NCBI GenBank assembly: GCA_003151155.1
Contig: PLWX01000176.1
Location: 1 to 43,770, forward strand
DNA from: Acidobacteriaceae bacterium
Lineage (GTDB): Bacteria > Acidobacteriota > Terriglobia > Terriglobales > Acidobacteriaceae
DNA: 43,770 nucleotides
Direction of reading: 5' to 3'
Shown: positions 67-36,102 of the stretch, piece by piece
Layout of the letters: every line of letters begins with the position of its first letter
Numbering within the stretch: position 1 is the stretch's first letter
Notes under the pieces: model-generated
Seen by the model: only the letters and a program-made list of their open reading frames with translations
Told to the model about the DNA's origin: nothing
Databases searched by the model: none
Position numbers and translations under genes: made by a program

Positions 67-146
67 GGCCCAGTTCGCTGACCGTGGGTTAGGCTGTGAT
101 TCTGGAAAGAAGCACAGTTCAGAGCCACAAGCGGAGAGGACCGGTC

Positions 147-1274
147 ATGAAGGAAAAGGTACGATTTTTGGGCTTGGATGTCCATGCCGAGACGATTGCT
201 GTTGCCATTGCCGAGCCGGATGGCGAGGTTCGCAGCTTGGGGACGATCGCCAACCGCGAAGAGTCGATCCGCAAGTTGATTAAGAAGCTGGGTGCGCCGG
301 AGCATTTGCGTGCCTGCTACGAGGCGGGTCCAACGGGCTATGTGCTGTATTGGCAGTTGACACAGTTGGGGGTCGAGTGCGCGGTGGTGGCGCCAACGCT
401 GGTTCCGACCAAGGCCGGCGACCGAGTGAAGACCGACCGGCGGGATGCCTTGAAGCTGGCGCGCAGTCATCGTTCCGACGATCTGACTGCGATATGGGTA
501 CCGGACGGAGACTCGGAAGCTTTACGTGATTTGGTGCGTACACGCGAGGCGGCCAAACAGGATCAGTTGCGAGCACGGCACCGGCTGAGCAAGTTTCTGC
601 TGCGCACTGGGCGGCGTCCGGCGGTGGGGATGAAGGCATGGACGGAACCTTATATGGCCTGGGTGCGCCAGGTTCAGTTCGAACGACCGGCACAGCAAGC
701 CACGCTTCAGGATTATCTGCACGAGGTCGATCACATGGCAGCACGGGTCAAGCGTCTGGAGCAGGCGATCACGGAAGCGGTAAAGCTGGCATCGCCGCAG
801 GTGCAGGAAGTAGTCAAGGGTTTACAGGCTCTGCGCGGCATCGCGGAGATTTCGGCGGTGACGATCGTGGCGGAGTTAGGCAACATCGCTCGCTTCGATA
901 CGCCGCGGCAGTTAATGGGGTACAGCGGCGCGGTTCCCAGCGAAGACTCCAGTGGCAAGCGAAAGCGACAAGGGAGCATTACCAAGACAGGCAACGCACA
1001 TCTGAGACGCATCGTTGTCGAAGCGGCATGGAGTTATCGGCACCGGCCTGCGATCGGGCCAAGGTTGCGCAAGCGACAGGAAGGGGTTCCAGAACCAATC
1101 AAGGAGATTGCCTGGAAAGCGCAGGTCCGGCTCTCCAAGCGCTATGCCAGGCTGGCGGCGGCAGGCAAGGACCAGCGCAAGATCATCACCGCAGTGGGGC
1201 GCGAACTGCTGGGCTTCATCTGGGCCATCGGGGTCAAGGTTGAGGCGGCCAGTAAGCAGCCGATGGCGGCATGA
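147..1274 (+). CDS. IS110-family transposase (DEDD_Tnp_IS110 plus Transposase_20)
   Basis: A 375-residue transposase. The N-terminal RuvC-like DEDD domain opens with FLGLDVHAETIAVAIAEPDG, where the first catalytic Asp sits in LDVH, and it continues through the segment KTDRRDALKLAR. The C-terminal Transposase_20 domain (about residues 245-330) has LRGIAEISAVTIVAELG and the typical GYSGAVPSEDSSGKRKRQG region containing the serine used by this family. ATG 147 is chosen because a purine-rich GGAGAGGA lies just upstream and the protein then begins at the usual place; an in-frame upstream start at 96 would add 17 atypical residues. Length is near the usual size for the family and the frame is intact, so the element may still be active. 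Known of the family: strand exchange is guided by a bridge/seek RNA. Confidence 0.93.
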   Translation: MKEKVRFLGLDVHAETIAVAIAEPDGEVRSLGTIANREESIRKLIKKLGAPEHLRACYEAGPTGYVLYWQLTQLGVECAVVAPTLVPTKAGDRVKTDRRDALKLARSHRSDDLTAIWVPDGDSEALRDLVRTREAAKQDQLRARHRLSKFLLRTGRRPAVGMKAWTEPYMAWVRQVQFERPAQQATLQDYLHEVDHMAARVKRLEQAITEAVKLASPQVQEVVKGLQALRGIAEISAVTIVAELGNIARFDTPRQLMGYSGAVPSEDSSGKRKRQGSITKTGNAHLRRIVVEAAWSYRHRPAIGPRLRKRQEGVPEPIKEIAWKAQVRLSKRYARLAAAGKDQRKIITAVGRELLGFIWAIGVKVEAASKQPMAA

Positions 1275-1783: not shown

Positions 1784-2743
1784 TTATGCCGTCGCGCGGA
1801 GCAGTTTCGGACGTGCCAGAAACAGGTTCACCAGGGCGCAGGTCGCGAACAGCCGGTTGGCGTTCTTCGCCAGACCTCGGTAGCGGACCTTCACGAACCC
1901 AAACTTCAGTTTCATGATGCCAAACACGTGTTCCACCCGCGAGCGCACTTTCGACTTGATTCGATTCTTCTCCCGTTCCCCTTCGTCGATACCATTCTTA
2001 TAGCGATACCGCCGATGCGTGCAGTCCTTGGCTTGCCGCGCCACCTGCTGAATCACCTCCCTCTGCCCGCGATACGCTTGATCGCCCCACACCCGCCTTT
2101 CTTCGCCGTGCAGCAGTTCCGGCAACACGGTCGCATCGGCCACGTTCGCTGCCGTCGCCACCACCGTGTGAATCATCTTGGTTTTGCTGTCGACGCCGAC
2201 ATGCGCTTTCATTCCGAAATGCCACTGGTTACCCTTCTTCGTCTGGTGCATCTCCGGATCGCGCTGCCGTTCGCGGTTCTTCGTCGAACTCGGCGCCTCG
2301 ATGATGGTCGCGTCGACGATGGTACCGGTCGTGATCCGCACTCCCTTGGCTTGCAGGTGCAGATTCACCGTCTCCAACATCTCCCCGCCCAACTGGTGCT
2401 GCTCCAGCAAATGCCGGAACTTGCAGACCGTGGTTTCGTCCGGCACCGGCTCGCGTCCCAGGTCGATGCCCACGAACTGCCGCATCAACACCGAGTCGTA
2501 CAAGGTCTCTTCCACCGCCGGGTCCGACAGGTTGAACCACTGTTGCAGAAAGTAGATTCGCAGCATCCGCTCCACGCCCACCGGAGGACGACCGTTACCC
2601 GGCTTGGGATAGTGCGGCTCGACCAGCGCGCACAACTTCTTCCACGGCACGACTTGCTCCATCTCTTCCAAAAACACCGCTCGCCGCGTCTTCTTGCTGT
2701 ACCGCTCGAATCCGGTCATCATCGCCAGCGTCCTCTGCTTCAT
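1784..2743 (-). CDS. IS5-family DDE transposase
   Basis: A 319-residue DDE transposase. The N-terminal IS5-type segment contains GNGRPPVGVERMLRIYFLQQ and the DSVLMRQFVGIDLG motif. The catalytic core follows: the first Asp in TIVDATIIEAPSS, the second in VWGDQAYRGQ, and the Glu in SRVEHVFGIMKLKFG, which also gives the family Y/R-E-K signature. The frame is open from end to end. ATG 2743 is preferred over an in-frame GTG at 2770, since MKQRTLAMMTGFERY is a normal beginning for the family. The gene fills most of the element, so the IS could still move. Confidence 0.92.
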   Translation of the reverse strand: MKQRTLAMMTGFERYSKKTRRAVFLEEMEQVVPWKKLCALVEPHYPKPGNGRPPVGVERMLRIYFLQQWFNLSDPAVEETLYDSVLMRQFVGIDLGREPVPDETTVCKFRHLLEQHQLGGEMLETVNLHLQAKGVRITTGTIVDATIIEAPSSTKNRERQRDPEMHQTKKGNQWHFGMKAHVGVDSKTKMIHTVVATAANVADATVLPELLHGEERRVWGDQAYRGQREVIQQVARQAKDCTHRRYRYKNGIDEGEREKNRIKSKVRSRVEHVFGIMKLKFGFVKVRYRGLAKNANRLFATCALVNLFLARPKLLRATA

Positions 2744-2800
2744 GATCTCTGCTCGACCTGCTGCCCGCACTCTAACGCGAAGAGTTGTGGAAAGCAGAGA

Positions 2801-3099: not shown

Positions 3100-4069
3100 A
3101 TGTCGCAATTTCTGGTTACGGGAGCTGCGGGTTTTATAGGACGTTCGATCGCGAAGCGTCTGCTCGAGGAAGGGCATGACGTGCGCGGGATCGACAACTT
3201 TTCCACTGGGAAATGGGAAAATCTCGAAGGGCTGGAGAAAATGGATTTCATGCAGGGCGACATTACAGACACGCACGTGATGGAGCGCGGCTGTGAGGGC
3301 GCGGAAGTGATATTCCACGAGGCGGCGCTGGCCTCAGTGCCGCCTCGTTGCTGGATCCAATTGCCAGCAACCACGCTAATGTGACGGGCACGCTGACGGT
3401 GCTCCAGGCGGCGCGCAAAGCGAAGGTACGGCGCGTAGTGTACGCCGGCTCTTCATCCGCCTATGGCGATACGCCTACACTGCCCAAGCGCGAAGACATG
3501 CTTCCCAAATCCGCTCTCGCCCTACGCAGTGACCAAACTGACAGGTGAGTATTACATGAATTCGTTCTCCAGGGTCTACGGACTCGAGACGGTGACAATC
3601 CGGTACTTCAATGTGTTCGGCCCCTACCAGGACCCGACCTCGCAGTATTCGGGCGTATTGGCAAAATTTATTCCGCAGATGCTCCGCGGTGAGGCGCCGA
3701 CTATCCATGGCGATGGCGAACAAAGCCGTGACTTCACGTTCATTGAGAACGTCGTCAACGGCAACCTGCTCGCGGCCCATGCGCCGGCAGAGAAGGTCTC
3801 GGGAAAGGTTTTCAACGTAGCGACCGGCAACCGAATTACGCTGAACGAAACCCGTCTGGCTATTGCGCAAGATCACCGGCTACCAAGGGCCGGTGCGCTA
3901 CGGAACCGAGCGTGCGGGAGACGTGAAGCACTCGCTGGCAGACATTTTGGCCGCGCGCACCAGTCTCGGCTACGAACCGACAGTTTTCTTCGAGGAAGGA
4001 CTGCGCCGAACCGTAGCCTGGTACAGCGAGATGCTCGCGAAAGATCCCGCACGCCAGGTTTCCTCATAA
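3100..4069 (+). pseudogene. NAD-dependent nucleotide-sugar epimerase, three frameshifts
   Basis: An extended short-chain dehydrogenase, most like UDP-GlcNAc/UDP-glucose 4-epimerases of polysaccharide loci. Visible motifs are the NAD loop TGAAGFIG, SSSAYGDTPTLPK, the catalytic YAVTK, RYFNVFGPYQDPTS and GDGEQSRDFTFIENV. The reading frame changes three times: a base is missing near 3343 (before LDPIASNHANVTG), one is gained near 3507 (AAA where AA would give NPLSPYAVTK), and one is gained near 3855 (before LLRKITGYQGPV). With those corrected the protein would be about 320 residues, the normal family length, running to the TAA at 4067-4069. It is either a decayed gene or a stretch with indel errors. 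The next 247 bases to 4316 hold nothing recognised. Confidence 0.85.
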
Positions 4070-4316
4070 ACGTGCTGCTTGGGGTTTGCGTTTTCCTTCG
4101 CGGCAAGGATGTTGTCTGTCCTACGCTCGATTCCCGAGGCCGGCTTGGCCACGGGAGTCTCGCTGAAAGAAAGCTGTTGATTTTCCGCGCAATGTCGGAT
4201 TAAATCTCACCTTCGCCGCTTTGACAGCTCCCTCACTCCTATGAATGGCTGTTTCGCTTCGTTGTCGGGCTTATGGCGTCGTCATTTCAGTCGTGTATTT
4301 CAAAGGAGAAGACAGT

Positions 4317-7830: not shown

Positions 7831-9027
7831 ATGATCACTGCACAGGGAAAATCCACCGGCTTTGCAAGAAAAGGTTCTGTCGCTTCGCAAGGCCAGCCGC
7901 GTACCGGGCGCTTCTATCGCCCGGAATTAGATGCCCTGCTTTTTTTTGCAGCCTTTGGCGTCATCGTCTTCCATTCCTTTCCCAAAGATATTGCCTTCTG
8001 GACCTCGCGCGGTTTCTCTCCGCACGTTGCCGCCCTCATCTACAGCGCGGTGGGTGCCGGTGGCTTCGGTATGGACTTGTTCTTCGCCCTCAGCGCCTTC
8101 CTCATCACCGAACTCTTACTACGTGAGCGCGAGCAACGCGGCACCGTCGATGTCAAGGCCTTCTACATCCGCCGCATCCTCCGTATCTGGCCCCTCTATT
8201 TCTTCTTTATCGCCCTCGCCGCCGTTCTTCCTTTCATTGACAAGACCCAGAACGTCGGCTGGCCCTACGTCGTCTCGTTTCTGTTGCTCGCCGGTAACTG
8301 GGTGGTTGTGATCCTTGGCGATCCAACCTCCGTCATCATGCCCCTCTGGAGCGTTTCCGTCGAAGAGCAGTTCTATCTCATCTGGCCGCAAGTTGTCCGC
8401 CGCCTCGGCAAGCGTGGCATTCATTTCCTCTGCGTAGCCATGCTCCTCGTCGGCGCCCTCTCTCGTTTCCTCCTCGTCCACAACCACCTCGGCGGCAACT
8501 TGATCTGGTGCAATACCTTCGCCCGCTTGGATCCCATCGCTTTGGGAATCTTGTTCGCCTTCGCTGCCCGCCGATATTCATTTGCGATCTCCGTGCCGTG
8601 GCGGATTCTCAGCGTGGCCATCGGAATCTCATTGTGGATGCTCGTAGGACGTTTCGGAAATCTTCACGTGCCCACCACCACCATGGCCAGCGCGCTCCTC
8701 GGATATCCCGCCGTCGCCATCGGAAGCATCTTCTTCCTCGTCAGCGCCTTTCGCGGTCCGGAGCATGGGTTCGGCTTCCTCAAACACCGCTCCCTCACCT
8801 ATCTGGGGCAAATTTCGTACGGCATCTACGTCTATCACGAACTCGGACTGCTGATTTCGCACCATCTCTTCGGCGCTTATACAAAACGCGCCGCCGGCTA
8901 CGCCGTCTACTGGGTCTTCGCCGTGAGCTCAACCATCCTCATGGCCGCAGTGTCCTATCAAGTGCTCGAAAAACCATTCCTCAAACTCAAGGAGCGCTTC
9001 ACTTTCGTCAAGTCGCGTCCGGCTTAG
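7831..9027 (+). CDS. Acyltransferase 3 family membrane O-acyltransferase (OafA-like)
   Basis: A 398-residue integral membrane protein with about ten hydrophobic segments. Family signs are the N-terminal FYRPELDALLFFAAFGVIVFHS with the conserved His in VFHS, MDLFFALSAFLITELLLRE, the basic loop FYIRRILRIWPLYFFF, and SVEEQFYLIWP. It moves an acyl group, usually acetyl, across the inner membrane onto a sugar hydroxyl of a surface polysaccharide. It follows the FkbM gene closely and both probably decorate the same glycan. The end, EKPFLKLKERF, is the usual one for the family. ATG 7831 places a normal cytoplasmic tail before the first membrane segment. Confidence 0.9.
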   Translation: MITAQGKSTGFARKGSVASQGQPRTGRFYRPELDALLFFAAFGVIVFHSFPKDIAFWTSRGFSPHVAALIYSAVGAGGFGMDLFFALSAFLITELLLREREQRGTVDVKAFYIRRILRIWPLYFFFIALAAVLPFIDKTQNVGWPYVVSFLLLAGNWVVVILGDPTSVIMPLWSVSVEEQFYLIWPQVVRRLGKRGIHFLCVAMLLVGALSRFLLVHNHLGGNLIWCNTFARLDPIALGILFAFAARRYSFAISVPWRILSVAIGISLWMLVGRFGNLHVPTTTMASALLGYPAVAIGSIFFLVSAFRGPEHGFGFLKHRSLTYLGQISYGIYVYHELGLLISHHLFGAYTKRAAGYAVYWVFAVSSTILMAAVSYQVLEKPFLKLKERFTFVKSRPA

Positions 9028-9122: not shown

Positions 9123-9151
9123 TTGTCAAAGGCTGCGCGTTCGGCTATCAT
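9123..9151 (+). promoter_or_regulatory. Sigma-70-type promoter for the ACP/FkbH operon
   Basis: TTGTCA at 9123-9128 and TATCAT at 9146-9151 are separated by exactly 17 bases, each one mismatch from consensus. Transcription would start near 9158 and give a leader of about 38 bases before the TTG start at 9196. A 10-base palindrome, CTCAATTGAG (9179-9188), covers the ribosome-binding area and could be a regulator site; that role is speculative. Confidence 0.6.
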
Positions 9152-9195
9152 CAATACTCAAAGAGTAAGATTCACCTGCTCAATTGAGGTCGTAA

Positions 9196-10119
9196 TTGGA
9201 AATCGCTGCAACCGGTGTCACCAAACAACTGCTCGAAACCCAGCTCTCGGTATTTCCCGCGCACCAGCAATATCTGAATCGGCGCTTTGCGGGTACGACT
9301 GCTGACGAGCTTGCGTTTCTGGAGCAGCTTGCCATCCTGATCGCAAAGGTGATAGACGGGAATGTTATCGGCTACGCAGATGATTATCGATGGCTGGCCG
9401 AGGCTGTGGTGGATGAAGAGATCGAGTTTCGGCGCTCGGGCAAATACCGTTTTACCTCTTTCGACGAAGTGGAAAAAGTCGTGTATGCGGATAAGGTCTT
9501 CATGACTCGATACATGAATGGCCTTCTCCTGTCGCAGCTTTGGTGGCGCAATCACACCGACGTGATGCGGTTTTTCTGTGAGCAGTACCTTCCGGGAAAT
9601 CGTGAGGGCTTCCGTCATCTCGAAATTGGTCCAGGCCATGGTTTGTTCCTCTATTTCGCGGCGGCATCGAAGAACTGTGGCTCCGCCACAGGATGGGATA
9701 TTTCGCCGGCGAGCATCGACCTTGTGCGAAAGGTTCACGGAGTCATTGGTCTGAATCGTCCCGTCTCCTTGGAACTCGTCAACATTTTCGAAGGCCCTTC
9801 CGCACGCTTCGATTCGGTGACCTTCTCAGAGGTCCTGGAACACCTCGAGGAACCCAGGCGAGCGCTGGAAGTGATCTACGATCTGCTCGAACCCAATGGG
9901 CGCGCGTTTATCAACGCCCCGGTTAATTCTCCCGCGCCGGACCATATTTCTCTATTCGGTAGCCCCGAGGAAATCGTCGAGATGATCCGCGAGGCTGGCT
10001 TCGAAGTGGAACAAACATTGTTTGCGCCGACCACGGGCGCAACGCTAGAACGCGCCCGGAAAGTGCGCTTGGCAATCTCAACCGCCGTTATCGCGCGGAA
10101 ACCGGAGAAAAAGTATTGA
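9196..10119 (+). CDS. Class I SAM-dependent methyltransferase
   Basis: A 307-residue protein with an N-terminal helical part of about 130 residues and a Methyltransf_23-like domain (about 140-270): HLEIGPGHGLFLYFAA (SAM loop), GWDISPASIDLVRKV, FDSVTFSEVLEHLEEP and YDLLEPNGRAFINAPV. The start codon is TTG 9196, preceded by GAGGT; no ATG occurs before the domain. Its stop overlaps the TTG start of the ACP gene by four bases (TTGA), so the two are translationally coupled. That coupling suggests it acts on an ACP-bound or ACP-derived intermediate, for example by O-methylating a glyceryl or hydroxyacyl group; this is inference. Confidence 0.82.
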   Translation: MEIAATGVTKQLLETQLSVFPAHQQYLNRRFAGTTADELAFLEQLAILIAKVIDGNVIGYADDYRWLAEAVVDEEIEFRRSGKYRFTSFDEVEKVVYADKVFMTRYMNGLLLSQLWWRNHTDVMRFFCEQYLPGNREGFRHLEIGPGHGLFLYFAAASKNCGSATGWDISPASIDLVRKVHGVIGLNRPVSLELVNIFEGPSARFDSVTFSEVLEHLEEPRRALEVIYDLLEPNGRAFINAPVNSPAPDHISLFGSPEEIVEMIREAGFEVEQTLFAPTTGATLERARKVRLAISTAVIARKPEKKY

Positions 10120-10361
10120 CGACCGATACCGAAATTGTTGACAAGCTGCGCGAGATGGTGAACACCCTCTTCGACGAATATACCGGCCCGGTGACACCGT
10201 CGTTGAGCGCGAACGATGTCGAGCAGTGGGACAGCCTTGGCACTGTGCAACTTGCGGTGATGATCGAGCAGGCATTCAATATTCGGTTCTCGACCGATGA
10301 AATTGCGAAGCTCGACAACCTGGGCACGATCGCCGAGATCATTGCTAAGAAACGGGGCTAG
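10116..10361 (+). CDS. Acyl carrier protein
   Basis: An 81-residue ACP/PCP-like carrier. The phosphopantetheine attachment serine is Ser40 in EQWDSLGTVQLAVMIEQAF, followed by IRFSTDEIAKLDNLGTIAEI, which makes the third and fourth helices. Length and helix layout are standard. It starts with TTG overlapping the preceding methyltransferase stop, and the hydratase follows two bases after its stop. It is not the housekeeping AcpP, which reads DSLDTVEL-like around its serine and sits with fab genes. It resembles stand-alone ACPs that pair with FkbH proteins. Confidence 0.92.
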   Translation: MTTDTEIVDKLREMVNTLFDEYTGPVTPSLSANDVEQWDSLGTVQLAVMIEQAFNIRFSTDEIAKLDNLGTIAEIIAKKRG

Positions 10362-10363
10362 GG

Positions 10364-10774
10364 TTGTCCATCAGACTCGGCGATACGGCGGAGCACGCCT
10401 TTGTGGTGGACGATCAGCAGATGAGCACGTTTCAGGCGCTCTCGAATGACTACAGTCGCATTCACACAGACGATGAGTATGCCCGGAGCCGCGGGTTCGA
10501 ACGCGCAATTGTGTATGGCGGCCTGATGCTGGCGCAACTCTCGCACGTATTAGGAAGAAAGATACCGGGGACGCTGGGGACCTCAGGACGGTGGCACATA
10601 GATTATCGAGCTCCGCTTTACGTGGGCGATAAAGCCGTGATACGGATGGAAGTGACATACGTTTCGAAAGCCACCGGTATTGTGGAAGGGAAGTTTGTGA
10701 TCAACGCCCGCGGAGCTCTGATAGCGACCGGAAAGGTCCAGAGCTTCGTTCCGACATCCGAGATTGCCGATTAA
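10364..10774 (+). CDS. MaoC-like hot-dog hydratase
   Basis: A 136-residue single hot-dog-fold protein of the MaoC/(R)-specific enoyl-hydratase type. The hydratase motif is visible as NDYSRIHTDDEYARSRGFER, with the catalytic pair Asp29 and His34, followed by AIVYGGLMLAQLSHVLG. It starts at TTG 10364, two bases after the ACP stop. The family reversibly adds water to trans-2-enoyl thioesters. Beside an ACP and FkbH it may form or dehydrate a 3-hydroxyacyl-ACP, or act as a thioester-binding partner. The substrate cannot be read from sequence. Confidence 0.85.
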   Translation: MSIRLGDTAEHAFVVDDQQMSTFQALSNDYSRIHTDDEYARSRGFERAIVYGGLMLAQLSHVLGRKIPGTLGTSGRWHIDYRAPLYVGDKAVIRMEVTYVSKATGIVEGKFVINARGALIATGKVQSFVPTSEIAD

Positions 10775-10795
10775 GCCGGAACTCCGCCCAAATTT

Positions 10796-12778
10796 ATGTC
10801 ATTTCGAATCGCGCAGCTGCCGTGGCGTCCTCCCGCCCCCGATGATTGGGGCCAACGATTAGATCGGCTGCTCTCAAACGTGAGTAGCGTTGTGAACGAT
10901 GTCGCCGAGAACGCGTCCTCGGTTACAGCGGACTTCGGAGTTGAGCTCCATGTTCTGGCAAATGCGCAGCTCGGCGATCTACAGCGGATCAAGTTAGGTA
11001 AGTGCGTCAAGAAATTATCGCCTTATCGGCAGCACCTCGCGCCGTTGCGGTCCTTTCGGCTGCTCGCGTTGAGCAATCGCACCTTATCCTGGTTCAATTC
11101 CGAGTTGAGCATCGCTGCTCCTGCCCGTGGGTTGTTTCTGTCGGTGATTGAAGGCGGATTCGACAGCGCTACATCAGTTGCTTTGAATGCAAGCACATCA
11201 GAAGGTCAGGAAGCTTACGACGGCGTGCTGCTGTTCTTTGATCACGCTGCCGTCGTGGCCCCGCCGCGCCTTCTCGCATCGGAAGAGGAAGATGCTTGCC
11301 TCAAAGATGCGAAAAACTGGTTGGGCAACGTAGCGCATTCTCTCAGAGAGAGATACGTTGCGCCGGTGATCCTAGCTACAATCCCTATCCCGCCCGAGCA
11401 TGTGGTCAGCGCAGCTGAAGGGTCGGTTGTGGGTACCTCGTCGCGATTTATTACGAAGCTCAACGAATTTATCGCAGAGGGCGGGAACACCGGAGATTGG
11501 ATCGTTTGGGATGTGCAGGAACTGGCAAACCAAGTGGGGACGCAGTCGTGGTTTGATCCAATTCGATTCCATCAAACCAAGGCGCCATTCGCCATCGAGC
11601 TGTGTCCGCTTGTTGCCGATCACTTTTGTAGCGTGATATCGGCGATGTGCGGCAAAGCCGGTCGCGCGCTGGTGCTGGACTTGGACAATACTTTATGGGG
11701 CGGGGTTATAGCGGATGATGGCCTGGATGGAATTCGTGTAGGGCAAGGCTCCCCGGAGGGCGAAGCCTACGTCGACTTTCAGAAATCTGTACTGCATCTT
11801 CGGGACCGCGGGATCGTCTTGGCAATTTGCTCGAAGAACCAAGACGACATTGCCCGGGAGCCGTTCGAACGCCATCCAGACATGCTGATGAAGCTCGAAC
11901 ACATCAGTTTTTTCCAGGCAAATTGGGCTGACAAAGCCACAAATTTGAAGGCAGTTGCGGAAGGTTTGAATCTCGGTCACGAATCGATCGTCTTCGTTGA
12001 CGATAACCCCGCGGAGCGCGCCAGGATTCGACAATTACTGCCACTGGTCAAAGTGCCCGAGATGGGAGAGGATCCGGCTTTCTTTCGGAGGATTCTGATG
12101 GCCTCTGGGTACTTCCGGCATCTCGTCCTTACGAAAGACGATATGCAACGGCTCGGTGCCTACACGGCAATGGCTGAGCGTGCGAAGGTAACCTCGCAGT
12201 TGGGAAACTACGCGGAATATCTGACATCCTTACAGATGCGGATGACGATTGCTCGCTTTGACAGCATCGGTCGGAAGCGCATCGTTCAGCTCATTAGTAA
12301 GTCGAACCAATTCAATCTGACGACTCGACGCTATAACGACGTGCAAATCGCGTCTATGGAAGAGGATTCGCAGGTCCTGGCCTGGCAAGTACGTCTGAGC
12401 GACAAATTTGGAGATCACGGGATGATAGCCGTCGTGATCGTTCGAAAAGAAGGTGATCGATGGATTATCGACACCTGGCTGATGTCGTGCCGGGTGCTGG
12501 AGAGGGGGGTAGAGCAGACGATCATGAACCATTTAGTCGCGCGCGCTCTCAAGGAAGGCGTGAAGCGCATAGAAGGCACATTCCTGCGCACGGATCGTAA
12601 TGCGCTGGTTGCGGATTTTTATCCGCGGATGGGATTCAAAGAAGTCTCGCGGCAATCGGATGACAGCTCAATTTCATACCTCCTTGATACGCATTGCTTC
12701 GAAGGCTTCAAGTCAACTATCGACGTGGAGTTGCTCGATGTGCGCGCCGCAAATGCCGCGCCTCAGGCGAATCGGTAA
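10796..12778 (+). CDS. FkbH-like HAD-IIIC protein, glyceryl-ACP synthase type
   Basis: A 660-residue protein. The N-terminal part (1-285) matches the SGNH-like FkbH N-terminal domain found in long family members. The HAD-IIIC domain begins near residue 290 with ALVLDLDNTLWGGVIADDG, containing the nucleophile pair DLDNT, followed by VLAICSKNQDD and IVFVDDNPAERARIRQLLP. A GNAT-like C-terminal part (about 490-640) contains KSNQFNLTTRRY and FYPRMGFKEV. Known of the family: FkbH proteins dephosphorylate 1,3-bisphosphoglycerate and load D-glyceryl onto an ACP thiol. The upstream ACP is the obvious partner. The 3' end overlaps the convergent GNAT gene by 16 bases. No ketosynthase is nearby, so this is not a polyketide starter system. 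Confidence 0.9.
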   Translation: MSFRIAQLPWRPPAPDDWGQRLDRLLSNVSSVVNDVAENASSVTADFGVELHVLANAQLGDLQRIKLGKCVKKLSPYRQHLAPLRSFRLLALSNRTLSWFNSELSIAAPARGLFLSVIEGGFDSATSVALNASTSEGQEAYDGVLLFFDHAAVVAPPRLLASEEEDACLKDAKNWLGNVAHSLRERYVAPVILATIPIPPEHVVSAAEGSVVGTSSRFITKLNEFIAEGGNTGDWIVWDVQELANQVGTQSWFDPIRFHQTKAPFAIELCPLVADHFCSVISAMCGKAGRALVLDLDNTLWGGVIADDGLDGIRVGQGSPEGEAYVDFQKSVLHLRDRGIVLAICSKNQDDIAREPFERHPDMLMKLEHISFFQANWADKATNLKAVAEGLNLGHESIVFVDDNPAERARIRQLLPLVKVPEMGEDPAFFRRILMASGYFRHLVLTKDDMQRLGAYTAMAERAKVTSQLGNYAEYLTSLQMRMTIARFDSIGRKRIVQLISKSNQFNLTTRRYNDVQIASMEEDSQVLAWQVRLSDKFGDHGMIAVVIVRKEGDRWIIDTWLMSCRVLERGVEQTIMNHLVARALKEGVKRIEGTFLRTDRNALVADFYPRMGFKEVSRQSDDSSISYLLDTHCFEGFKSTIDVELLDVRAANAAPQANR

Positions 12779-13764
12779 TAGATATCAGAATCAAGATATG
12801 ACAGGCGCGCTACTGTGTTGATCTGACTTGATGCCGATGTCAGATTATAGAGAGGATACTCAAAGTCCAATCTCCGGAATCCGGCATGCGCCAATGAGCT
12901 GATGATTGCTTTATCAACGCGCGACACAAGTGTATTGACCGAGCCGCCTCCCTGGTGCTCGATGAGTCTGAGGCAGCACTCGATACAGTCGGAAATCGCT
13001 TCCTCGCTGCCTGCGCTTACCAACAGCGCCGCCTTCCACTCTTCTGGTGTCTCGCGCGAACGCCAGGCAAGCGCGCTGGCCTCTGAATGCCGAGTTTCGC
13101 ACGACCAAGTCTCTAAACCGGGACACCGCAACAGCCGCCATTCGAGATCAGCGTGGGTGTACGACGGCTGAAACTTGCCTTCGGAACTGATCGCGCTCAG
13201 TGAGTCATGCCGAATATGTTCGAGCCCTTGGGAGACATTGACAGCATTACGATAGGAGCGAAAACGTGGGATGGGGAATCGATTCAGTGATCCTAGCTGA
13301 AGAGATGCTGGTAACACGCCCCGGCGCTTCAGGGCCATGGCGATCCCAGAAAGCGTCACATGTTTACGGAAAACTAGCCCAGCTGAGCCATCGCAGGTGG
13401 GAGAGATGCGAGATAAGATTTTCCTGGTGACATCTGCTCCCCCGAGAGCGACCGTCGCGTCGGAGCTTCTCTGGGCAGCATTGAGGAGCTGTAGGCCGTA
13501 CGCTCCGCGGACCGTGTGGCTGACCGACCAATCACACGCCCAGCAGCCATGGATGGAACGGCTCCCGTTAGAGAATTCGACCGGAATCAAGCCGATGAAG
13601 CCAGCGACGTCCTCGCCATGAACGAGTGCAAATCCACGCTCTCGGTCTGCCATGCTGACATTATCAAAATATTTCCATCGCGCGATGTCAGCATGCATTC
13701 CCACTTTTCCTAAATAGTCCACTAGGGATCTTGGCGATACTTGATGCAGCGGAACAATATCCAT
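12763..13764 (-). CDS. GNAT-like N-acyltransferase family protein
   Basis: A 333-residue soluble protein. Its first half resembles GNAT-type acyltransferases of polysaccharide loci: KVGMHADIARWKYFDN, GEDVAGFIGLIPVEF (the central strands) and HGCWACDWSVSHTVRGAYGL, in the place of the CoA-binding turn. The second half (about 200-333) holds DLEWRLLRCPGLETWSCE and a second GNAT-like unit without a clear motif. The likely role is transfer of an acyl group to an amino sugar; the acyl donor is unknown. It is convergent with, and overlaps, the FkbH gene, and is followed upstream on its strand by a NodB-like gene. Function confidence is moderate. Confidence 0.6.
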   Translation of the reverse strand: MDIVPLHQVSPRSLVDYLGKVGMHADIARWKYFDNVSMADRERGFALVHGEDVAGFIGLIPVEFSNGSRSIHGCWACDWSVSHTVRGAYGLQLLNAAQRSSDATVALGGADVTRKILSRISPTCDGSAGLVFRKHVTLSGIAMALKRRGVLPASLQLGSLNRFPIPRFRSYRNAVNVSQGLEHIRHDSLSAISSEGKFQPSYTHADLEWRLLRCPGLETWSCETRHSEASALAWRSRETPEEWKAALLVSAGSEEAISDCIECCLRLIEHQGGGSVNTLVSRVDKAIISSLAHAGFRRLDFEYPLYNLTSASSQINTVARLSYLDSDIYYRFA

Positions 13765-13830: not shown

Positions 13831-14721
13831 TTACAAACTGCCGGTAGCGCGCACGGTCCTCAGAGCGGCAGTATCGATCGCCTTAAGCTCCTGATACCCC
13901 AGGATCCGGACCGAGGGATTTTTGGCAAGCGCGGATATGCAACGAAGGCTGGATTCAACCCGAAGATCGTAGTCATGGCTGCAAAGGGCACCCATAACAG
14001 TTCTCGGAGAACGTTGCAGCAGACGCGCGATATTACGATTAAAATCCTCGATACGGTCCGGGCCAGAACATCCAATCAACGTCTGTACGCAATTTATATC
14101 ACCCTGGCCGGTAGCGATGCGGAAAGGCTCTCCGGCAGGAATCGATTGAGTCATCAGGATTCGATGAGAGAACTGATTTCTAAACCACGGCGAATGTGAG
14201 AATGAGAAATCAAGGCCAAAACCTTTTTCGGCGAGCTTCGCCAAAAGGTCGCTGTTAACGAACCACCATCCGGCGGAGTAGATCGGCTGGATTGGAACTT
14301 TATATTGGTCGAACCAATCGAGGTCCGATTCAACCTGCTGCATGACTGAGGCTTTTACGAAGTTATTGCAACGGATCTCACTCTCATATTCCTGGAAGTC
14401 GTTAGGCGCTATCCAAAAGTGGCCATGATAACCAAGAGTTGCGACAGCGGCTAATTCGTGCATTCGACCCGCGATGGTATCCATGGATACGTGGGCTTTG
14501 GCAGCGCCATCTCGCACCCGCGCGTTGGCCCCACTCATCAGAGCACAGATCGGCTCCACCCCAGTCTCTTCAGCAAAACCATTACAGAATGAAATCAGGT
14601 TTTGAAATAACGTGTCGTCATACATCTGCTCCACGTGAAAGACGAACAGAAAGGCGCATTGTTTGTCCGGAAACGCAGACGGGCGGAGAGTGTAGTAGAT
14701 GCGCTTTAACACTTGTCTCAA
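13831..14721 (-). CDS. Putative polysaccharide deacetylase-like (NodB-fold) protein
   Basis: A 296-residue protein without a signal peptide. It has a TIM-barrel deacetylase look: strand-like FLFVFHVEQMYDD at the start, ATLGYHGHFWIAP with two His in the position of the NodB HxxxH metal motif, QPIYSAGWWFVNSDLLAKL, GFGLDFSFSH, and MGALCSHDYDLRVESS near the end. The metal residues are not in canonical spacing, so it is a diverged family member or an inactive relative. Its ATG overlaps the stop of the upstream GNAT gene (ATGA), so the two are coupled. Deacetylation of an amino sugar before re-acylation by the neighbours is a reasonable inference, not shown. Confidence 0.5.
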   Translation of the reverse strand: MRQVLKRIYYTLRPSAFPDKQCAFLFVFHVEQMYDDTLFQNLISFCNGFAEETGVEPICALMSGANARVRDGAAKAHVSMDTIAGRMHELAAVATLGYHGHFWIAPNDFQEYESEIRCNNFVKASVMQQVESDLDWFDQYKVPIQPIYSAGWWFVNSDLLAKLAEKGFGLDFSFSHSPWFRNQFSHRILMTQSIPAGEPFRIATGQGDINCVQTLIGCSGPDRIEDFNRNIARLLQRSPRTVMGALCSHDYDLRVESSLRCISALAKNPSVRILGYQELKAIDTAALRTVRATGSL

Positions 14722-15608
14722 AATATGTCCTTGGCTCCGGCAAACAGGTTGAACCTCGCGTCCGCGGTCTGCCGCTTTAAGTCAAAGAGAACCAGGGGCT
14801 CGGTGTGCATCGCTGGTCGAACCTGTTTAAAAAGTGCCGCGTACTGATTGGTGTGGTGCATTACAAATTGAATGTAGGTCGGTTTGTAAACGCCCACCAG
14901 TTTGGCGACGAGCTGCCCGAAGAAATGAGGGTTGTTGATGATCATGCCCCCGCAATCAAAGTAGGACAACGTGAGCGGACCCGCTTTTCGCTTCCGCATC
15001 CTACCCCAAATCAGATTGTGGTAGTCCTCCACGACCAAAATCTCGCCTCCAGATTCCTGCTTTTTGAGGACGATGAGCTGGTGTTCGTTCTGAGAGTATG
15101 AATTCTCAACTACCAGCGTTTCGATATCGCTCCAGTGGCGCAGATTCCGCGTCGGGAGCAGCCAGTTCGACGGGATCAGGGCCTTTGACATTGGAGACGA
15201 CGTGAATCCCAACTCCGAAGTGAAAATTGCGCCAGAATCGGCATTCGGAAAGCCGAGGATGAACGCAGAACCTCTCTCCTTGAGAATTGCCTTCGCTTCT
15301 TCTATCAGATTATTGAAGATGCGTTTCCCGCGATGATTAGGATTGGTCGCGGTCCAGCAACTCTGATGGCAATTCACGATATCCCCATTCCAGATAAGGT
15401 CGTGAGAGATGAATCCATTGAATCCGATCAATTCTTCACCGATGAATGCGCCAAGGTAGAGCGACGGCGAGACGGTGCTCTTGGTCCAGGTATTCAGGCG
15501 AACTCTTTGGCTGTGGATATCTGAGTTGAACGTGACGCGAAGCAGATTTGTCACCTTTGTCTCAGCGACCGGATCGAACAGATCCACTTCCTTGATGTCA
15601 TAATCCAT
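14718..15608 (-). CDS. GNAT-family acyltransferase
   Basis: A 296-residue protein. The N-terminal 150 residues are a GNAT fold: LYLGAFIGEELIGFNGFI (central beta strands), CHQSCWTATNPNHRGKRIFN (pyrophosphate-binding turn with NPNHRGKRIF in place of Q/RxxGxG/A), then NLIEEAKAILKERGSAFILG and FPNADSGAIFTSELGF. The second half is divergent. It is the first gene of a coupled pair with the deacetylase-like gene. It probably N-acylates a sugar in the repeat unit. The 264 bases upstream hold only a doubtful short ORF. Confidence 0.7.
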   Translation of the reverse strand: MDYDIKEVDLFDPVAETKVTNLLRVTFNSDIHSQRVRLNTWTKSTVSPSLYLGAFIGEELIGFNGFISHDLIWNGDIVNCHQSCWTATNPNHRGKRIFNNLIEEAKAILKERGSAFILGFPNADSGAIFTSELGFTSSPMSKALIPSNWLLPTRNLRHWSDIETLVVENSYSQNEHQLIVLKKQESGGEILVVEDYHNLIWGRMRKRKAGPLTLSYFDCGGMIINNPHFFGQLVAKLVGVYKPTYIQFVMHHTNQYAALFKQVRPAMHTEPLVLFDLKRQTADARFNLFAGAKDIF

Positions 15609-34310: not shown

Positions 34311-35064
34311 ATGAAGGGTATTGTACTCGCGGGAGGCACCGGATCACGCCTTCACCCGCTCACGCGCGTAACCAACAAGCACCTGCTGCCGGTTTACAAC
34401 AAACCAATGATCTACTACCCGATCGAAACCTTGGTCGAGGCTGGCATTCACGAAATCATGATCGTGACCGGCGGCAATAGCGCGGGCGATTTTTTGAAGC
34501 TCCTACGTAACGGCAAGGATTTCGGTCTCCAGCAGTTGAGCTTCGCCTATCAGGAGGGCGAGGGTGGAATCGCTGACGCACTGCGCCTCGCAGAACCCTT
34601 CGTTCGCGGCGAACGCGTGTGCGTCGTCCTTGGCGACAACATCATCGAAGGCTCGGTCCGCGCCGCCAAAGAGCGCTTTGACCGCCAGGAGCGCGGCGGC
34701 ATGGTGATGCTGAAAGAGGTCAACGATCCGGAGCACTTCGGCGTCCCCGTAGTCGATGACGGTAAGATCGTTCGCATCGAGGAAAAAACCCAAAGACCCC
34801 AAGTCCAATTTCGCCGTGATCGGCGTTTATTTCTACGATTGGACCGTCTTCAATCGCGTCCGCACCTTGGAACCCTCCGGCCGCGGCGAATTCGAGATCA
34901 CCGATGTCAACAACTCCTACATCGCTGACGGTGCGCTCTCCCACTGCGTTCTTGATGGCTGGTGGACGGATGCCGGCACTTTCGAATCTCAGTGGCGCGC
35001 CAGTAACCTCGCTCACGAGAAGGCCACGAGAACTGCCGAATTGTCCGTGGGAGCTGCAAAATGA
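34311..35064 (+). pseudogene. rfbA: Glucose-1-phosphate thymidylyltransferase, one frameshift
   Basis: A short-form RmlA-type nucleotidyltransferase of about 250 residues. Clear motifs: MKGIVLAGGTGSRLHPLTRV, NKHLLPVYNKPMIYYPIETL, VVLGDNII, and after the shift SNFAVIGVYFYDWTVF, GRGEFEITDVNNSYI, GWWTDAGTFES. The frame breaks at about 34783, where a run of six A's in GAGGAAAAAACCC gives KTQRP; five A's would give EEKPKDPKSN and restore the whole protein. It catalyses dTDP-glucose formation from dTTP and glucose-1-phosphate. A strong GGAGGG ribosome site precedes ATG 34311. The stop overlaps the rfbB start (ATGA). The single-base gain in a homopolymer could be a sequencing error or a real mutation. 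Confidence 0.9.
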
Positions 35065-36102
35065 AGCTTGCTATCACCGGAGGTGCCGGATTCATCGGCT
35101 CCAATTATGTCCATCACGTTCTCCAGCACTGCCCCGACGACTCCGTCATCGTCATCGATGCGCTCACCTATGCCGGTAATCTCCAAAATCTAGAAGCCGT
35201 CGCCAACGATGAGCGATTGCAGTTCGTGAAGATGGACATTCTCGATCCCCGCGTCGTCGAGGTTCTTCACGGCTGCGACGTCATCGTCAATTTCGCCGCC
35301 GAGAGTCACGTCGATCGAAGCATCGAAAATGCGAAGGCCTTCGTTCGAACCAACGTCGAAGGTACCTACAACCTTCTCCATGCCGCGCGCCGCAAAGGCC
35401 GCCCGCTTCGTGCAGATCGGTACGGATGAGGTCTACGGATCGTTAGGGTCGGAAGGGAAGTTTGTCGAATCGACTCCGCTTTCCCCGAACAGCCCCTACG
35501 CGGCAACCAAGGCTGCGGCCGACCTTCTGGTGCAGTCCTACGTGCGCACCTTTGGTTTTCCCGCAGTGATTACCCGCTGTTCCAACAACTACGGTCCCTA
35601 CCAGTTTCCTGAAAAGTTCTTTCCCCTCATGATCACGCAAGCCATGTCCGGAGAACCTCTGCCCGTGTACGGCGACGGCTTGAACGTTCGCGACTGGATC
35701 CACGTTGAGGATCATTGCTCCGGTATCCACGCGGTTGTCGTAAAGGGACGCGACGGTGAGATCTACAACCTCGGCGGCGAATGTGAAATGCACAACATCG
35801 ATGTGGTGCACAGCATCCTCGACGCGTTCAGCCGTCCCCGCACCTTAGTCCGTTACGTGCAGGACCGCCTCGGCCACGACCGTCGCTACGCCATCGATTG
35901 TTCCAAGTCCAAGTCGGAGTTGGGATGGAGTCAGCAGTGGAATTTTGATCGCGGTTTGCGGGATACGATTCGCTGGTACCGCGACAATCGAGCTTGGCTG
36001 GAAGGCGTTCGCACCGGTGCTTACATGGAATATATGAAACGGCAGTATGATGATCGCACCGTCCTCATGCAGTCGCTGTCTACGGGCGCTTCCTCCAATT
36101 AG
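35061..36102 (+). pseudogene. rfbB: dTDP-glucose 4,6-dehydratase, one frameshift
   Basis: An extended SDR of about 346 residues when the frame is restored. Motifs: KLAITGGAGFIGSNYVHHVL, ALTYAGNLQNLEAV, FAAESHVDRSIENAK, then after the shift FVQIGTDEVYGSLGSEG, the catalytic SPYAATKAAADLLV, ITRCSNNYGPYQFPEK and YGDGLNVRDWIHVEDH. The shift lies near 35391, in GCGCGCCGCAAAGG, where one C fewer would give AARAKAARFVQIG. The normal product converts dTDP-glucose to the 4-keto-6-deoxy sugar, the branch point for rhamnose or amino-deoxy sugars. rfbC and rfbD are not in the window. Coupled with rfbA by a four-base overlap and followed nine bases later by the amidotransferase gene. Confidence 0.9.

Follow-up and report, generated by a model that had tools for sequence, protein, structure and literature searches.

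The window analysed here is a 43,770-nucleotide stretch of an Acidobacteriaceae bacterium (assembly GCA_003151155.1, contig PLWX01000176.1, positions 1 to 43,770) and is a Wzx/Wzy-type exopolysaccharide (EPS) locus, in which we found a four-gene cassette encoding a methyltransferase (MT), a stand-alone acyl carrier protein (ACP), a MaoC-like hydratase and an FkbH protein. On balance, we think it probable that this cassette makes a glycerate-derived acyl-ACP whose acyl group goes onto a glycan of the envelope or one that is exported. A preliminary description of this DNA had presented the four genes as coupled, which our analysis bears out: all are intact open frames on the plus strand, with a 4-nt overlap between MT and ACP followed by gaps of 2 nt (ACP–MaoC) and 21 nt (MaoC–FkbH), and each matches its family. 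The cassette and the promoter-like site in front of it are laid out as follows.

9123–9151, plus strand: candidate promoter-like site, TTGTCA-17-TATCAT (10/12 consensus matches)
9196–10119, plus strand: class I SAM methyltransferase with an N-terminal extension of ~125 residues and a TTG start (Methyltransf_23, E 2e-16)
10116–10361, plus strand: stand-alone ACP (PF00550, PP-binding, E 9e-6), with the phosphopantetheine Ser40 inside a DSL motif, as had been described
10364–10774, plus strand: MaoC/PhaJ-like (R)-hydratase/dehydratase (PF01575, MaoC_dehydratas, E 3e-10) with an Asp29–His34 dyad
10796–12778, plus strand: long-form FkbH of 660 residues (TIGR01686, 298 bits against a cut-off of 147)

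This operon is not a chance arrangement, because the order MT-ACP-MaoC-FkbH recurs in another locus (L141), in a stretch of 69% G+C. The idea that the cassette has a good promoter of its own fared less well: the site at 9123–9151 is real, yet such sites are no commoner in the cassette region than in shuffled sequence (2 observed versus 3.5 ± 1.7).

The FkbH consists of an N-terminal domain, a HAD-IIIC phosphatase domain and a C-terminal GNAT-like domain, and residues D295, D297, T299, S346, K380, D402, D403 and C565 are kept as in polyketide FkbHs. Its HAD motifs (DxDxT, S, K and DD) and S564-C565-R566 are common to the polyketide-type references, and its catalytic residues are identical to those of tetronate and methoxymalonate FkbHs. 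The solved chain 3slr matches the protein over the HAD part. An AlphaFold model built from three sequences was poor (predicted local distance difference test, pLDDT, 53), and only residues ~480–650, with pLDDT mostly between 60 and 85, were used; this part matches GNAT folds, which supports the assignment of the C-terminal domain as GNAT-like. Formation of glyceryl-ACP from 1,3-bisphosphoglycerate (1,3-BPG) by an FkbH and an ACP is an accepted route (PMC7489565), and judging by its sequence the window FkbH is predicted to load D-glyceryl from 1,3-BPG onto the ACP. In the one quick tree that we built, of 106 FkbHs, the window protein falls inside a clade of 46 (SH-like approximate likelihood-ratio test, SH-aLRT, 100), whose sister group (support 92) is formed by the FkbHs of tetronate polyketide clusters (L201, L202 and L208).

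The partner proteins fit a dedicated acyl-carrier pathway. Among solved structures, the closest to the window ACP is 2lml (E 7e-11), which we take to be GmACP3, a specialised Geobacter metallireducens ACP putatively linked to lipopolysaccharide. The MaoC protein aligns with the (R)-specific enoyl-CoA hydratase 1iq6 (E 4e-13), with Asp and His of the SEDFNPLH motif in register, and belongs with the (R)-hydratases by both its hot-dog family match (PF01575) and its catalytic D29/H34. Strong relatives of the MT (E<1e-60) number ten in Pseudomonadota, nine of which lie no more than 3.1 kb from an FkbH while the tenth is at a contig end; further MT relatives, two on plasmids and one in L075, also sit at an FkbH. 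We regard the MT as an FkbH-pathway enzyme because its family occurs almost only beside FkbH, and by analogy with aeruginosin/suomilide modules, where an FkbH, a methyltransferase and a carrier give O-methylglycerate (PMC10143770), it most likely O-methylates carrier-bound glyceryl. In relatives of the cassette, MaoC often adjoins an SDR (L047, L074, L141 and L161) or is fused to one (L153), and where such a ketoreductase is linked or fused, dehydration and ketoreduction of glyceryl-ACP could yield lactyl-ACP. The MaoC step is the least certain in the window, because no SDR stands beside the cassette. Also recurring next to FkbH is an MT followed by a VOC/glyoxalase-like or epimerase-like protein (L083 13846–15278, PF13669; L149 12575–13978; L086 11498–12872), of which the VOC protein is perhaps an epimerase of the acyl alpha-carbon or acyl thioester.

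From these components we infer a route in which the FkbH would take the glyceryl group of glycolytic 1,3-BPG onto itself, strip its phosphate and charge the phosphopantetheine arm of the ACP with D-glyceryl. The MT would then O-methylate the ACP-bound glyceryl, and MaoC may dehydrate glyceryl-ACP to enolpyruvyl- or pyruvyl-ACP. An acyltransferase would finally move the acid from the ACP to a sugar; in the family at large, this would be an MBOAT with an FXYXXF tail together with an SGNH partner. Such a family-wide system would be Dlt-like, with FkbH replacing DltA and acyl-phosphate chemistry replacing ATP.

The wider distribution of the cassette was surveyed in 297 genomes of the window's phylum, in 398 genomes of Pseudomonadota (the phylum of a Rhodocyclales relative) and in plasmids. 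FkbH relatives occurred in 29 of the former, including the window's own genome, in 51 of the latter and on 121 plasmids, as well as in two named proteobacterial metagenome-assembled genomes that were found by a contig scan with over-specific peptide patterns. About 100 neighbourhoods on draft contigs were labelled with home-made profiles from seed proteins, the key seeds being checked against Pfam. Within 5 kb of the 46 clade FkbHs, an ACP was present in 42 cases and an MBOAT in 32, with MaoC in 13, MT in 10, SGNH in at least 9 and SDR in 9. Counting only clade members with complete flanks, 27 of 34 have an MBOAT within this distance, compared to 6 of 54 FkbHs outside the clade, one of which is a frame-split Sinorhizobium meliloti 1021 copy of a clade locus; the difference between clade and outside gives a Fisher p of 8.5e-11, a value inflated by relatedness, several rows being close kin. 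The conserved core is FkbH, ACP and MBOAT, with or without SGNH, and MT and MaoC are optional. The full four-gene set as found in the window is rare, the same order occurring in one other locus, the proteobacterial contig L141, in which an MBOAT and an SGNH-like gene (identified by eye) precede MT-ACP-MaoC-FkbH (58/54/53/44% identity to the window).

Several loci place the clade among surface-glycan genes. In L041, FkbH-ACP-SGNH-MBOAT lies between Wza/Wzc and Wzx, and same-family relatives in L041 and L050–L053 sit among Wzc, Wza, glycosyltransferase and PST genes. On pSymB of S. meliloti, an MBOAT gene is followed by one for a protein in the place of SGNH and then by ACP and FkbH, with genes for capsular polysaccharide and RkpR export alongside. 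The preliminary description had suggested looking for conserved co-occurrence of the four genes with Wzx/Wzy genes; the four-gene set itself recurs just once, and it is the clade that in several cases lies inside EPS or K-antigen loci. Co-occurrence confined to polyketide or tetronate clusters is not what we found, the clade being linked to MBOAT and SGNH with no ketosynthase near.

Some of these loci carry further features. In S. meliloti, the protein between MBOAT and ACP (L081 2386–3612, L082 10412–11641) is annotated as a TonB-dependent receptor and has no Pfam match, so that this label is likely a misannotation. The FkbH of strain 1021 (L080, pSymB 631229–633081) is split into two frames and is a single open frame in L081, L082 and L218; strain 1021 may be without this pathway. 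In L153 (6585–10833), an FkbH, an ACP, a fused MaoC-SDR and a 292-residue protein stand directly beside flagellar rod/hook-like genes (by eye), a setting that suggests a flagellar glycan as acceptor. Another glycan-like FkbH context is found on a plasmid of Streptomyces sp. NBC_00441 (L206 3784–13132), where FkbH is near an ACP, glycosyltransferases and dTDP-sugar genes, with no polyketide synthase annotated in the stretch.

The membrane proteins of the clade resemble those of a known shuttle. FkbH-linked MBOATs (PF03062) end in sequences such as FIYFQF, FLYFQF, FVYQAF and FIYMGY, with a strict FXYXXF in 20 of 32 and a looser pattern in 25 of 32; the S. meliloti MBOAT terminates in FLYQGF. A 2025 study reported that the FXYXXF motif carries the acyl group on its Tyr from MBOAT to SGNH (PMC12148441). 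A membrane transfer route is strongly suggested for the cassette relatives. A close known parallel is the Dlt pathway (DltA/DltC/DltB/DltX/DltD), which D-alanylates teichoic acids: there too a small carrier protein bears the acyl group, and the use of an MBOAT with an FXYXXF shuttle alongside SGNH is shared with the wider FkbH family. In contrast to Dlt, the loader here is FkbH, using acyl phosphate chemistry with no adenylation, rather than DltA; the acid is predicted to be glycerate-derived rather than D-Ala; and the MBOATs of the FkbH relatives carry the shuttle motif on their own chain, like PatA/AlgI. PatA/PatB and AlgI/AlgJ, which O-acetylate polysaccharides, share the same MBOAT-SGNH membrane machinery with the cassette relatives but use acetyl-CoA and no carrier protein, and MBOAT/SGNH systems other than Dlt are without a carrier because they use acyl-CoA (PMC12148441). 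The window itself has a carrier protein and a dedicated loader in one operon, and profile labelling gave no AMP-ligase, and hence no DltA-type adenylation enzyme, near the cassette; by analogy, the window system may work like a Dlt-like MBOAT-SGNH carrier pathway.

Comparison with the antibiotic pathways in which FkbH is better known separates the cassette from them. Tetronate and methoxymalonate modules (FkbH, Mad7/Mad8 type) similarly pair an FkbH with a stand-alone ACP and share the conserved HAD and Cys residues, in line with the sister-group position of tetronate FkbHs, whereas here there is no ketosynthase, FabH-like ring former, FkbI/FkbK dehydrogenase or AT, and the linkage is to MBOAT/SGNH and glycan genes. 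The aeruginosin/suomilide loading module (FkbH, O-methyltransferase, peptidyl carrier protein) also brings FkbH, methyltransferase and carrier together, but its domains are embedded in a nonribosomal peptide synthetase (NRPS), while the cassette encodes separate proteins with no NRPS. Neither the window nor any of the neighbourhoods compared gave a ketosynthase hit to a FabF seed profile, in agreement with the earlier observation that no polyketide module is near. Neither a tetronate nor a methoxymalonyl module is present, the neighbours being glycan enzymes, and a polyketide or tetronate origin of the window cassette was rejected on the absence of a ketosynthase and the different partners.

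The glycan-enzyme setting noted previously was likewise confirmed. The window contains Wzx, Wzc/BY-kinase, Wzy_C, Wza (Poly_export/SLBB), glycosyltransferases and a WecA-type PF00953 enzyme, with PF01943, PF04932, Wzz/GNVR/AAA_31 and glycosyltransferase families all represented. The host is a 5.7-Mb draft genome (93% complete, 5% contamination), in which a genome search found a single FkbH and a single MBOAT (C238). The cassette was probably acquired, because an MT search of 249 other genomes of the host family gave no match; its G+C and third-position G+C (GC3) are like those of neighbouring genes. That the contig is a contaminant is conceivable, though G+C lends this no support and short stretches of the flank match DNA in 20 of 59 other genomes of the family. 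Two transposase-like genes identified by eye, IS110-like (96–1274, plus strand) and IS5-like (1784–2770, minus strand), adjoin a broken epimerase gene at the window's left end. The NAD epimerase, rmlA-like and rmlB-like genes (3100–4203, 34311–35060 and 35061–36102) are split between frames, a pattern resembling either indels introduced during assembly or genuine decay.

Which enzyme would perform the transfer in the window is the point at which the cassette departs from its relatives. The flanking candidates and their neighbours are:

7831–9027, plus strand: acyltransferase-3 (AT3) membrane protein without an SGNH domain (PF01757, E 1e-29), 168 nt upstream of the MT
12763–13764, minus strand: GNAT-like protein, convergent with FkbH, no Pfam match; candidate acyl-ACP transferase
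13831–14721, minus strand: protein of the GNAT operon that resembles a deacetylase by eye only and matches nothing in Pfam or NCBIfam
14718–15608, minus strand: GNAT acetyltransferase (PF13527, E 4e-11)

The AT3 occupies the place where L141 has its MBOAT-SGNH pair before the same cassette, and either it or the adjacent GNAT-like protein may carry out acyl transfer. We also considered the assembly's lone MBOAT (C238, tail LMYRNF) as a dedicated partner and rejected it: the complete genome of a congener, where the search for the MT gave no match, has a 66% identical copy.

Several observations weigh against the proposed glycan acylation. No MBOAT with an FXYXXF tail, nor any other MBOAT or SGNH, is linked to the window cassette. 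Adjacency of the AT3 is weak evidence because it is one of seven AT3 hits in the host genome, and the donor of AT3 proteins is held to be acyl-CoA rather than acyl-ACP (PMC9558356); we accordingly kept the AT3 as a candidate and did not accept it as the certain transferase. In the clade, glycan genes were detected near just 8 of 46 members with the narrow profiles used, and Tistrella (L087) and L141 have no nearby glycan cluster. A polysaccharide acceptor is not general, because no glycan genes lie near several of the complete systems. The earlier proposal that the acyl-ACP decorates the polysaccharide is thus upheld in part: the FkbH residues, dedicated ACP, non-polyketide context, clade linkage to MBOAT/SGNH and occurrence of some members in EPS/K-antigen loci speak for it, while the missing MBOAT/SGNH and the variable setting weigh against it.

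The lack of a linked MBOAT also favours cytosolic N-acylation, in which the GNAT-like protein (12763–13764) would move (O-methyl)glyceryl from the ACP to an amino sugar in a precursor carried by a nucleotide or lipid, with no membrane acyltransferase. In two other genomes of the phylum, relatives of the GNAT-like protein are immediate neighbours of FkbH and ACP and occur together with a polysaccharide deacetylase, in the order deacetylase, GNAT, FkbH, ACP, MT, VOC (L086) and FkbH, ACP, GNAT, deacetylase (L070). However, the similarity is weak (phmmer E 1e-6 and 3e-4; 21–23% identity), the gene is on the strand opposite to the cassette, the FkbHs of both loci fall outside the window's clade, and the GNAT fold is unconfirmed, the model being unusable (pLDDT 36) with no hit in the PDB; we hold this explanation to be rather unlikely.

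We consider it distinctly improbable that the acyl-ACP feeds a small secreted metabolite, a cryptic natural product, with its position in the EPS locus accidental. It is chiefly from polyketide and NRPS pathways that FkbH is known, acquisition of the set is probable, and Tistrella and L141 could be read this way, but no ketosynthase is near any compared clade FkbH, the clade is strongly linked to MBOATs with the shuttle motif, and the window genes are embedded in a complete EPS locus. Still less credible is a remnant cassette, a piece acquired from elsewhere that has shed its MBOAT/SGNH and yields no product: the missing partners would agree with this, as would the insertion-sequence genes and the sugar genes with broken frames elsewhere in the window, but all four genes are open and none of their conserved residues is lost, and G+C and GC3 match the neighbours.

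Returning to acylation of an envelope or exported glycan, we see about an even chance that the cassette represents a widespread Gram-negative Dlt-like pathway, in which FkbH charges an ACP from 1,3-BPG, optional MT, MaoC, SDR and VOC proteins tailor the acid (to O-methylglyceryl, pyruvyl/lactyl or epimers), and a shuttle MBOAT with SGNH, or another transferase in the window, acylates exported glycans. In the literature searched we found no description of the FkbH-ACP-MBOAT-SGNH variant, which is not proof of novelty, and nothing relevant on how glyceryl is transferred to gellan. L-Glycerate is a substituent in gellan. Di-O-methylglyceric acid is a known glycan substituent on Campylobacter jejuni flagellin (PMC3958885). 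Because glycerate-type substituents are already known, the novelty would lie in the route, not in the decoration. If correct, this route would couple central glycolysis directly to coat chemistry via an antibiotic-pathway enzyme, with no ATP-driven ligase, and would break the rule that non-Dlt MBOAT/SGNH pathways use acyl-CoA without a carrier. Surface glycans would then be expected to bear glycerate, methylglycerate or lactate, and a large FkbH/ACP/MBOAT gene set that occurs across phyla, the model symbiont S. meliloti included, would gain a function.

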